64,000 bases of DNA, taken from assembly GCA_018434325.1 (NCBI GenBank), contig JAHDPO010000004.1, forward strand, positions 310,001-374,000. Reading direction: 5' to 3'. The stretch is from Clostridia bacterium. GTDB lineage: Bacteria > Bacillota > Peptococcia > DRI-13 > UBA5745. Shown here piece after piece: positions 54,958-57,737 of this stretch. Position 1 is the stretch's first letter; each line of letters opens with the position of its first letter. The translations under genes were made by a program, and so were the position numbers. The notes under the pieces were generated by a model, which saw only the letters and a program-made list of their open reading frames with translations, searched no databases and was not told the origin of the DNA.

Positions 54958-55243
54958 GCAATAAAAAAACGCTTCTGTCCTTATAAAGGGACAAAAGCGT
55001 GAACTTCTGCGGTACCACCCAAATTGGCGAAAAATCGCCCACTTGCTCCATGCACCAACATGCATGCTTCCTTGGTAACGGGTGAAGATCCCGTCGGCCA
55101 TTACTCGCTGATCGCTTTCTTGCCGCCCTCGTGAGTCCATTCTCCTGCTTCGCTACTACCGCACTCTCACCACCGGCGGCTCTCTTTGAGTAAGCTTGAA
55201 ACAGGGTACTCTTCTCAGTCATAGGTTTGTGGGTATTCTGTTG
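54958..55243 (-). ncRNA. Tryptophan T-box leader with terminator/antiterminator
   Basis: The minus strand carries the T-box sequence GGGTGGTACCGCAG (55020-55007), followed by a terminator hairpin ACGCTTTTGTCCC/GGACAGAAGCGT and seven T (55000-54963). Upstream is the stem I region with AGTAGCGAAGCAGGAGAATGGA; the specifier is UGG (55139-55137) in the GAA-UGG-A context, matching tRNA-Trp. Uncharged tRNA-Trp would stabilise the antiterminator and turn on trpDCFBA. Confidence 0.95.
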
Positions 55244-55371: not shown

Positions 55372-55653
55372 CAGTGACCTCCTGACAGGGGGCACTGATG
55401 TACAAAATTTCCGCTTATACGCAATTGAAGGAGATCGGCTGTACAAAATTTTCGTTTGTGGGTAAAGTGCAAAGCCCAGGCAGTCAGTGAACCTGCCCAC
55501 AAACGCAATAAATGCAGCGATTTGGGTTGAAACTGATCTGAACCGGGCCAGAGCTGGCCCGGATTTGGCCTGGTAGCGCTTGCAATTTACATACAAGTGG
55601 AAAAATTGTACAGGCCAAAGCCTGGGATTGCATACAGACGAAAATTTTGTACA
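55372..55653. repeat. Left palindromic array of 26-bp TGTACA-bounded repeats
   Basis: Five units: forward at 55399-55424 and 55440-55465; reverse at 55493-55518 (degenerate, TGCAGC for TGTACA), 55587-55612 and 55628-55653. Consensus begins TGTACAAAATTT, then NCG, then YTTGTATGYAA. The first two and last two units are each offset by exactly 41 bp (26-bp unit + 15-bp variable spacer). The outer end reads CAGTG-N11-GGGGGCACTGA directly before TGTACA. No ORF. It is homologous to and in the same orientation as the array at 56877-57120. Confidence 0.88.
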
Positions 55654-55715
55654 GCACTGCTCTTCGCTGCCGAGTTATTCGTCCTCCTTGCATCATTGCT
55701 CACTTATTCAACAGC

Positions 55716-55756
55716 AAAAGACGCATGAACACTTTAATCGTTCTCATGAGTCTTTT
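55716..55756 (-). terminator. Hairpin terminator after the repeat-flanked gene
   Basis: AAAAGAC-GCATGAAC (55716-55730) pairs with GTTCTCATGAGTCTTTT (55740-55756), with one bulge. The minus strand ends in GTCTTTT. It is 11 bp downstream of the stop codon at 55767. Confidence 0.65.
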
Positions 55757-55766
55757 GAACTTATCT

Positions 55767-56633
55767 TCAGTCTGAAAGGGAGTTTCCTCTGGGCAACAAA
55801 GATCTTAGACGATCATTCATCTCATCAAACTTCTCTGTCCGAATATGTATGCGTTTGTCAAGGCGAGAGGAGAGATTTAAAACGAAATCCTTACAGGCAG
55901 TCTTATCGTATAGCTGGATAGTATTCAAATGCATTACCTCAATGCCATGTCGGTCAAGAATTGCGGAGCGGATAGCATCCTTGCCCTGCTCTGAGGGCCG
56001 GCTGTGGAAGGCAAAGCTTTCGTACTCTATAGCCAATTTGGCCGCTTTATAATACAGATCCATAAAGCAGCGCTTTTGCCGCAGGCGCTTGCCGGCTTCA
56101 TCTTCCAGTCTGATTTCATAATTGAAAGCGGCGCCGCCAAGGCCATAACCTCCCAATAAATGGGGCAGTGTCAGAAACATATAAACGATGGACTCCATGA
56201 TAGAAGCAGAGCCGTTTTCTATATACTTCAGTGCCCGCCAAGCCTTTTTGTGGCTGTGATGGCCGGAGGTCCTGGCCAGGAAAGAGCTGAGCTTTTCCTT
56301 TGTGGTAATTGCTGCAGCGGGAGCGCCCGGCGGATGTGAGCAAAGCTGCAGACCAAGCAAGATAAGCCTATGGATGTCTAATTCAGACGCCAGCTGGAGA
56401 AACAGCAATTCCGGTGATGCGATTATCTTGCCGCCCCTTGCTATCGCCGCACCGGCAGGCAGAGGGGATTGGCATAAACGGATTTTACACCCTTTCATCC
56501 GTGATAAGGCGCTGCGCTGGAAAATAGTATAATCAATTGTATCCGACTCGGCAGGATCGAAACCAAATACAGTTTCCGCATAGGGAATATTCCAATAGAC
56601 TGCCGCCGAAAAATGACTCAAAAACTCTTTCAT
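55767..56633 (-). CDS. PD-(D/E)XK/DUF559-like protein encoded between two repeat arrays
   Basis: 288 residues from ATG 56633. The N-terminal half (FLSHFSAAVYWNIPYAE; IIASPELLFLQLASELDIHR; LGLQLCSHP) resembles AbiEi-type antitoxin-like proteins. The C-terminal half has SASIMESIVYMFLTLPHLLG (Glu147), then FMDLYYKAAKLAIEYESFAF-H with Asp192, Glu203/Glu205 and His210, which fits the Vsr/DUF559 version of the PD-(D/E)XK nuclease fold with E-Y-E in place of ExK. From memory, an uncharacterised family like this is frequent in Coriobacteriia. The -10 box ends 6 bp before the ATG, so its mRNA should be leaderless, and no Shine-Dalgarno is present. The gene lies between the homologous arrays at 55372 and 56877. 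A role in moving or reading these repeats is inference. Confidence 0.75.
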   Translation of the reverse strand: MKEFLSHFSAAVYWNIPYAETVFGFDPAESDTIDYTIFQRSALSRMKGCKIRLCQSPLPAGAAIARGGKIIASPELLFLQLASELDIHRLILLGLQLCSHPPGAPAAAITTKEKLSSFLARTSGHHSHKKAWRALKYIENGSASIMESIVYMFLTLPHLLGGYGLGGAAFNYEIRLEDEAGKRLRQKRCFMDLYYKAAKLAIEYESFAFHSRPSEQGKDAIRSAILDRHGIEVMHLNTIQLYDKTACKDFVLNLSSRLDKRIHIRTEKFDEMNDRLRSLLPRGNSLSD

Positions 56634-56639
56634 GTGGAA

Positions 56640-56668
56640 ATTATAGTATAAAACCTTAAAACTATCAA
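56640..56668 (-). promoter_or_regulatory. Promoter giving a leaderless transcript of the repeat-flanked gene
   Basis: Minus strand TTGATA (56668-56663), 17-bp spacer, TATAAT (56645-56640). The expected start, 6-7 bp downstream, coincides with the A of ATG 56633. Confidence 0.75.
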
Positions 56669-56876
56669 GAAAAATATTCCATATATGAAAATTCAATCCA
56701 TATAACAATTATTCGACTTAAACGTACAGCGTGATTCAATCCTGCTGGGAGAACCTGCTCCAGATGGACAGTTATGGCCTTCTAATAATCTCCATGGCGC
56801 CGGACCGATTATGCCAAGGCTGCCATGACTGATCCGATGCGGAGGATTAGAGAAATTGCTTGGGGGGTTGTGCTTC
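56669..56876. other. Non-coding gap between the leaderless gene and the right repeat array
   Basis: About 200 bp with no convincing ORF, RNA or repeat. It begins A/T-rich next to the promoter and becomes G/C-rich; the last bases before the array read GGGGGGTTGTGCTTC, an imperfect version of the outer-end GGGGGCACTGA motif. Confidence 0.5.
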
Positions 56877-57140
56877 TGTACAAAATTTACGGCTGTATGC
56901 AATAGCGCTTGAGGTACTGTACAAAATTTACGGTTGTATGTAATATGCGATCCCTCGCAATCCCCATACGACCTATAAAGCTGCATACAAGCGAAATTTT
57001 TGTACAGATTTGGCCTGAAACTGGTCTAGAACGTGCCTAGCAGGCGCTGCATTTTACATACAAACGAAAAAAATGTACAGGCAACGCTGAGAATCTGCAT
57101 ACAAACGAAAAAAATGTACAGTCAGTGCCCCCCCCCACTG
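56877..57140. repeat. Right palindromic array of 26-bp TGTACA-bounded repeats
   Basis: Forward units at 56877-56902 and 56918-56943 (41-bp offset); reverse units at 56981-57006, 57054-57079 and 57095-57120 (last two 41-bp offset). The central part GATTTGGCCTGAAACTGGTC aligns with the left array's GATTTGGGTTGAAACTGATC; the left copy has 21 bp more between units 3 and 4. The outer end reads TGTACA-GTCAGTGCCCCC... then CACTG, the inverted form of the left outer end. No ORF. Confidence 0.88.
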
Positions 57141-57302: not shown

Positions 57303-57737
57303 TTATTCCTCGTTGCTGGAAACGTAGTCCTGAGCGGGATCTTTGACCTCATCTTCCAAAATGGCATCAGGATCCGCCGGCATATACTCCTCATCCACTG
57401 GAATATCATCATCTTCAATATTGGAGGCCAGCTTCACTTCCTCGATTTTGGCCTTGCACTCCTCAATCTTGGACAGACTGCCGCTGATCTGTAAGAACAA
57501 AGGCTCCAATACGGAATAATCCTGGGAACTACAATAAATATCAAAAGCATGCCTGCCGATATCATCATAAAGCTTGGTGATCTTGCCGTTTTCCACCATG
57601 ATGTCTTTTTTCAGCTTGCCGATCTCAATGGCCTGCTCCGACTTTTCTTTGGCAGCCATAGCTGCCGACTTGGCAACGGATGCCGTGGTTTCTCCTACCT
57701 TTTTACCTAGTTCGAGAGCTTTATCAAAAAATGCCAT
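57303..57737 (-). CDS. Small coiled-coil protein, unknown function
   Basis: 144 residues, no signal peptide. Residues 1-60 are helical with heptad character (FFDKALELGKKVGETTASVA, AMAAKEKSEQAIEIGKLKKD), 60-105 continue helical (SGSLSKIEECKAKIEEVKLA), and the C-terminal ~38 residues are acidic and disordered (EDDDIPVDEEYMPADPDAIL). Similar short clostridial proteins often carry a C-terminal zinc ribbon; here it is replaced by the acidic tail. GGAGGG precedes the ATG. Monocistronic with its own terminator. Confidence 0.7.
   Translation of the reverse strand: MAFFDKALELGKKVGETTASVAKSAAMAAKEKSEQAIEIGKLKKDIMVENGKITKLYDDIGRHAFDIYCSSQDYSVLEPLFLQISGSLSKIEECKAKIEEVKLASNIEDDDIPVDEEYMPADPDAILEDEVKDPAQDYVSSNEE

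Follow-up and report, generated by a model that had tools for sequence, protein, structure and literature searches.

What connects a single nuclease-like gene with the two palindromic arrays between which it lies, and could its product be the agent that spreads them? Both questions are raised by one locus in the window, a stretch of 64,000 nucleotides of Clostridia DNA. A preliminary description, made from the letters alone, had read positions 55372–57140 as a transposon-like unit in which two homologous arrays surround one gene for a protein of 288 residues. The layout itself was confirmed. The gene (55767–56633, minus strand) starts with an ATG at 56633 and stops at 55767, in an open reading frame that reaches upstream to a TTG at 56708. 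Palindromic array 1 (55399–55653) lies 3' of the gene, and palindromic array 2 (56877–57120) lies 5' of it, 244 bp from the ATG. The two gene-flanking arrays share one orientation, being direct copies as described, and are strongly divergent from each other.

Array 2 consists of two forward 26-bp units (outer, 56877–56902; inner, 56918–56943; plus strand) and three reverse ones (inner, 56981–57006; middle, 57054–57079; outer, 57095–57120; minus strand). Array 1 has two forward units (outer, 55399–55424; inner, 55440–55465, 41 bp from the outer one; plus strand) and two clear reverse units (55587–55612 and, outermost, 55628–55653; minus strand), and the outer pairs of same-orientation neighbours are spaced 41 bp. 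A third reverse unit of array 1 (55490–55515, minus strand, family D1) is degenerate and lacks TGTACA, so the earlier count of two forward and three reverse TGTACA units per array holds for array 2 and only partly for array 1. The inverted match reported at the outer ends is present, with GGGGGCACTGA at 55388–55398 (plus strand) facing TCAGTGCCCCC at 57122–57132 (minus strand), but these recurring flanks are not unique termini: the GGGCACTGA-TGTACA junction recurs at L031, a solo array in another place, and many arrays have G-rich outward flanks.

The window gene is neighboured by trpD and an unrelated gene, with no adjacent AbiEii toxin gene. The trp genes are preceded by a T-box leader (54984–55231; Rfam, 109 bits). 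Some 170 bp upstream of this leader, where the trp operon presumably has its promoter, is array 1. The Rfam search of this region returned the T-box alone above cutoff and no other known RNA.

The preliminary description had suggested a genome search for the 26-bp unit. In the 3.83-Mb source genome (G000), this search gave 70 occurrences at up to 3 mismatches and 0 for the reversed pattern, which excludes chance as their origin. Most occurrences belong to arrays that stand alone, with two to six units each, distant from any copy of the gene; array 2, too, has homologues dispersed in the genome. Several contigs of G000 begin inside arrays (C12:1, C43:11, C62:11 and C44:5), so that copy numbers taken from draft genomes are minimum values. 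An unbiased search for inverted repeats bounded by TGNNCA, covering 1.94 Mb of G000 and a congener (G023), found 79 arrays, compared with 0 in the reversed sequence used as control, and 74 of the 79 were intergenic against 12% of random windows. The repeats are thus dispersed, and predominantly between genes.

Homology between copies often ends 0–4 bp from the terminal TGNNCA, which gives these repeats sharp ends; other array subfamilies have longer mosaic flanks in common and no sharp ends. Units start with TGNNCA-AAATT, and GTAG is found only as one variant within some units. Same-orientation units are spaced by 40–42 or about 62 bp, in some cases by 73 bp, and by 31 bp in an Arthrobacter array; in this order, these spacings correspond to about 4, 6, 7 and 3 helical turns. 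Such helical spacing favours a protein sitting on one face of double-stranded DNA, an indication that is suggestive only, as array copies share descent. Judged against the species split, most arrays appear old. Target-site duplication at 29 arrays showed no excess over shuffled pairing, in agreement with the preliminary description, which had identified none. A different repeat family, with at least 10 partial matches in G000, was seen at L086 2780–3283, near the nuclease gene of G023.

Among 398 genomes of the phylum, a strict pair pattern gave 62 pairs in G000 (control 0), 6 in G384 (control 0) and 3 in G335 (control 1), and these three genomes were the only gene carriers found. Gene-negative genomes had 0 to 5 strict pairs, mostly without any resemblance beyond the pattern. 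One of them, G003, which belongs to the same order and has no gene copy at E ≤ 1e-6, holds two convincing TGNNCA arrays (C47:25148 and 26740). Unit counts, compared with their controls, were 253 against 22 in G000, 555 against 18 in G023, 61 against 26 in G384 and 130 against 21 in G419, although only a fragment of the gene (L095) was found in the last of these. In R. termitidis (G414), little stands out beyond the gene-adjacent array, so persistence of the gene need not entail spread of its repeat.

The gene and the repeat are closely paired in Firmicutes. An inverted-repeat array bounded by TGNNCA lies 19–338 bp upstream of the start codon in 12 of 12 intact Firmicute homologues, a result that clearly contradicts the possibility, raised in the preliminary description, that homologues never lie near such repeats. 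In five homologues from different genomes, 19–21 bp separate the end of the array from the start codon. For most homologues the upstream array is the only one; C44 (the window gene) and C50 have arrays on both sides. Outside the two array-rich genomes, the gene-adjacent array is almost the sole structure of this kind, often the only one in about 10 kb. The three paralogues of the source genome adjoin three different repeat families: C44 lies between TGTACA/..CG.. arrays and C50 between two TGAGCA-type arrays, and at C63 a TGCGCAAAATTGCAAG palindrome ends 21 bp before the start. Array and protein sequences co-diverge, the distances between array units correlating with those between proteins (Mantel r 0.75, p 5e-5). 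The preliminary description had proposed that the protein is tied to these repeats as its partner, and we conclude that gene and palindrome stand, with high probability, in a cognate relationship.

The close family is patchy, being present in 2 of 25 genomes of the order and 3 of 398 of the phylum, and also in R. termitidis, a Thermacetogenium and other Clostridia, at 58–78% identity. This rare and patchy occurrence at such identities suggests horizontal spread; no member of the close family was found on phages or plasmids. Truncated gene remnants were seen in Firmicute genomes (L094, L095 and L069). Two further loci of G384, L254 (C1:2097807) and L255 (C1:1323973), combine an array with only the first 75–115 nt of the nuclease gene; they are 94% and 87% identical and end at different points in the gene. 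Such partial copies possibly show how a gene copy could turn into a solo array.

The protein itself is composed of an AbiEi-like N-terminal half and a C-terminal half of the Vsr/EDxHD-type PD-(D/E)XK class. Pfam scores of the window family were about 13–22 bits, and REase_MTES_1575, DUF559 and DUF2726 (cutoffs 20.6–38.2) all remained below gathering. Two distant actinobacterial proteins from a family-profile search, L096 and L097, aligned with the window family in hhalign (E 3e-7 and 6e-6), and other actinobacterial relatives pass the cutoffs of DUF559 and AbiEi_4. A relative, L275, passes that of Pfam AbiEi_4. As judged from these alignments, the window protein is homologous to DUF559/MTES_1575 proteins and forms a branch of its own. 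Pfam, NCBIfam, PHROGs and PADLOC returned matches of nuclease type only and no HUH (Y1) tyrosine transposase; NCBIfam had no match for the window family and hence none to its Vsr model. The dN/dS values between homologues were 0.11–0.18, which shows purifying selection on the protein.

An AlphaFold model based on an alignment with distant relatives reached a pLDDT of 85.8 and a pTM of 0.87, compared with a pLDDT of 35 from the close homologues alone. The modelled core has the order alpha-beta-beta-beta-alpha-beta and bears E147, D192, E203, E205 and D219, which are conserved across the alignment, with the exception of L096, where the position of D192 has no acidic residue. In Foldseek, the best relevant PDB match was I-Bth0305I (3r3p; probability 0.99, TM 0.58 on the target, with a weak E of 0.10), AbaSI and TnsA were weaker, and no solved structure matched under E 0.001. 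Some mitoribosomal chains, which we take to be RAP/Vsr-like proteins, outranked 3r3p but had poor TM scores, and a sequence-based search of solved structures gave no match. The model predicts a nuclease fold like that of a homing endonuclease, with a conserved acidic core. The PD-(D/E)XK-like character proposed in the preliminary description is therefore supported by Pfam, profile alignments, conserved residues, AlphaFold and Foldseek alike.

Comparison with the congener showed that presence of the gene is polymorphic. At the orthologous site in G023, between the trp T-box and the gene corresponding to 57303–57737, there is one array (G023:C34:270431-270675) that is 87% identical to array 1, with neither the gene nor array 2. 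The inversion of this array relative to the conserved flanks spans precisely the segment between its TGTACA ends. In G023, the site of C50 contains unrelated arrays and no gene, and the G023 C38 gene is missing at its site in G000. These differences are compatible with gain of the gene, by insertion next to a palindrome, and also with its loss through recombination between two palindromes. The comparison of empty and occupied sites foreseen in the preliminary description thus produced a geneless array allele in G023 but no clean empty array site between G000 and G023, the sites being decayed or rearranged. L015, considered as an empty site, retains an array remnant and represents a deletion.

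Since most arrays stand alone and the flank motif is found at others too, we reject the reading of 55372–57140 as one transposon with the arrays as its ends. The arrays behave as discrete units, and this reading is also at odds with the homologues that have an upstream array only and with the inverted, geneless array of the congener.

Two distant relatives of the protein, in Leucobacter and Blastococcus, each have a copy of their own hairpin on either side. A wider set comprised 21 DUF559/MTES_1575-type loci (20 actinobacterial, one on a phage-labelled scaffold), taken from two genomes plus plasmid and phage records. Fourteen of these loci share a repeat on both flanks at a score of at least 18, compared with 0 of 215 other Blastococcus genes, and seven are without a detected flanking pair. 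The palindromes are gene-specific, differing from one gene to another, and have a simple hairpin form. Blastococcus has 10 relatives in its genome, with palindromes that mostly occur only at their gene in 374 kb and a few solo copies of other palindromes. The annotated loci on actinobacterial plasmids have housekeeping neighbours and no AbiEii toxin gene. The phage-labelled scaffold, L283 (MT837503.1, 6.7 kb, labelled bacteriophage), encodes a distant nuclease relative with common palindromic repeats on both sides.

Dispersal was also seen in Actinobacteria. In Tsukamurella, the 60-bp palindrome on the flanks of one gene has 13 locations in that genome, of which 11 are not at the gene. The eight copies that were read can be aligned over their full length; they have sharp 60-bp ends and unrelated flanks, and no target duplication was seen. 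Arthrobacter StoSoilB13 has its palindrome at 47 places, spread over two replicons, and Arthrobacter ERGS1:01 has its own at 20 places on a single replicon. At the intergenic site after a phosphate transporter gene, ERGS1:01 carries the nuclease gene with its palindromes, and StoSoilB13 carries a solo palindrome of its own type. A search of 72,556 plasmid records gave no convincing palindrome match in other organisms, only short ones at chance level.

Since gene and palindrome occur together and co-diverge, the palindromes are dispersed and sharp-ended, presence of the gene is polymorphic and the nuclease core is conserved, we propose a two-part system, in which a nuclease gene and a palindrome matched to that nuclease copy only are joined, the nuclease spreading the palindrome; we regard this account as probable. 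Several copies of the protein would occupy the units of an array, all on the same face of the DNA, and pair the arms of the array. Nicking or cutting by the nuclease might follow, either in the array or in a cruciform formed from it, and repair could copy the palindrome into a new intergenic site. More rarely, the gene would move or be lost via recombination between two palindromes, which would yield either array-gene-array or a single array. For the nuclease as the spreading agent, taken by itself, we put the chances at even or slightly better. The proposed account is set against the missing target-site duplication and clean empty/occupied array pair, the mostly old arrays, the R. termitidis gene without a spread repeat, the gene-negative G003 with its two convincing arrays and the seven of 21 loci without a flanking pair; the position of arrays near the start codon fits plain autoregulation equally well.

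Plain autoregulation is part of the strongest alternative, namely an operator role combined with amplification by another agent. Here the AbiEi-like half would repress its own promoter, solo copies would be a regulon or decoys spread by something else, and the nuclease half would serve another role, such as defence or repair. AbiEi-type antitoxins are known autoregulators; the match of L275 to AbiEi_4, the five arrays ending 19–21 bp before a start codon and the helically phased units, which suggest double-stranded DNA binding, all accord with this explanation. It leaves unexplained that the palindrome recurs on the downstream side (14 of 21 wider-set loci; C44 and C50), as well as the dozens of near-identical solo copies and the boundaries at palindrome ends, and we consider it unlikely. 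A homing-type selfish gene is also conceivable, the palindrome being the target and a cut allele receiving a copy of the gene, which results in palindrome-gene-palindrome, with palindromes spreading by another route (recombination or replication slippage). The closest relevant solved fold is that of an EDxHD homing endonuclease, the orthologous site of the congener has the palindrome without the gene, and gene sites differ between the congeners. The flanking copies in the window, however, differ too much for any recent homing to be visible, and strain-specific amplification of the cognate palindrome would have no explanation, so that we hold homing to be quite unlikely.

Alternatively, the arrays could be MITEs of a DDE transposase with Tn7/Mu/Tn552-like ends, and the nuclease gene a passenger or later insertion. 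The arrays combine TG...CA ends with repeated subterminal sites, two on one side and three on the other, in the manner of ends of the TnsB or MuA type, and they are dispersed and intergenic. No DDE gene is present at any locus read, however, and the absence of DDE, HUH or recombinase genes from these loci agrees with what the preliminary description had proposed for this system. Repeat type follows nuclease sequence in 12 unrelated loci, R. termitidis has its only array beside the nuclease gene, and actinobacterial palindromes show the same association in spite of their different sequences and simple hairpin form. With no transposase seen at the loci read, and no target duplication or independence from the nuclease gene, DDE MITEs are very unlikely.

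In its broadest form, the idea of the nuclease as copier takes in AbiEi-like PD-(D/E)XK (DUF559/MTES_1575) enzymes of both Firmicutes and Actinobacteria, each of which would copy its own palindrome around the genome. Together they would make up a widespread, unrecognised counterpart of REP/RAYT; to this we give an even chance.

If true, this would perhaps be a new enzymatic route of DNA mobility, with an enzyme resembling homing endonucleases in place of a DDE, HUH or recombinase transposase. The gene-by-gene pairing gives the common and functionally blank DUF559/MTES_1575 family a testable function, and orphan palindromes in Actinobacteria and Firmicutes a possible source. Each nuclease brings its own candidate recognition sequence, so that specificity could be read from the genome. 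Novelty as a repeat-mover would fall if the activity proved only regulatory.

The nearest known parallel is provided by the 'REPtrons', in which a RAYT (TnpA-REP) gene is flanked by its own REP/REPIN palindromes, one repeat type per gene, and the palindromes are dispersed intergenically, non-autonomous and amplified in gene-bearing genomes (PMC8049555, PMC8266576, PMC3733652). The present system is similar in that each gene is flanked by its own palindromes, which have non-autonomous dispersed copies. It differs in having a PD-(D/E)XK nuclease instead of an HUH tyrosine transposase, helically spaced arrays of units and palindromes without the conserved GTAG foot of REPs. RAYTs are single-copy and vertically inherited, whereas here there are three copies in G000 and 10 relatives in Blastococcus, patchily distributed and at unshared sites. 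CGTC-tagged REPs are likewise dispersed palindromes, without a known dedicated enzyme (Di Nocera 2013; PMC3733652), but they have another sequence and occur in other phyla. For many families of bacterial palindromic repeats no enzyme is known, and CGTC repeats exemplify this recognised gap, on which the present system bears.

On the protein side, the fold and conserved acidic core are shared with EDxHD/Vsr-like nucleases (I-Bth0305I and Vsr); unlike these, the family has no intron or intein host, possesses an AbiEi-like fusion and is linked to dispersed palindromes, a link for which we found no description for such enzymes in the open literature. DUF559/REase_MTES_1575 proteins with AbiEi_4 are homologous, and their actinobacterial members show the same palindrome association; the window family differs in scoring below the Pfam cutoffs, on a branch of its own. 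Open literature, as distinct from subscription papers, reported neither a function nor a palindrome association for DUF559/MTES_1575 genes. AbiE type IV toxin-antitoxin systems have the AbiEii toxin gene that is missing beside these genes. MITEs of the Tn7/Mu type resemble the arrays in their TG..CA termini and repeated subterminal sites, but here no transposase was seen at the loci read, no target duplication was found and the repeats follow the nuclease. As far as we have checked, no nuclease family has been described whose genes, in two phyla, are each paired with a dispersed palindrome of their own; both the enzyme and the repeat anatomy are unlike those of any known repeat-mover pair.
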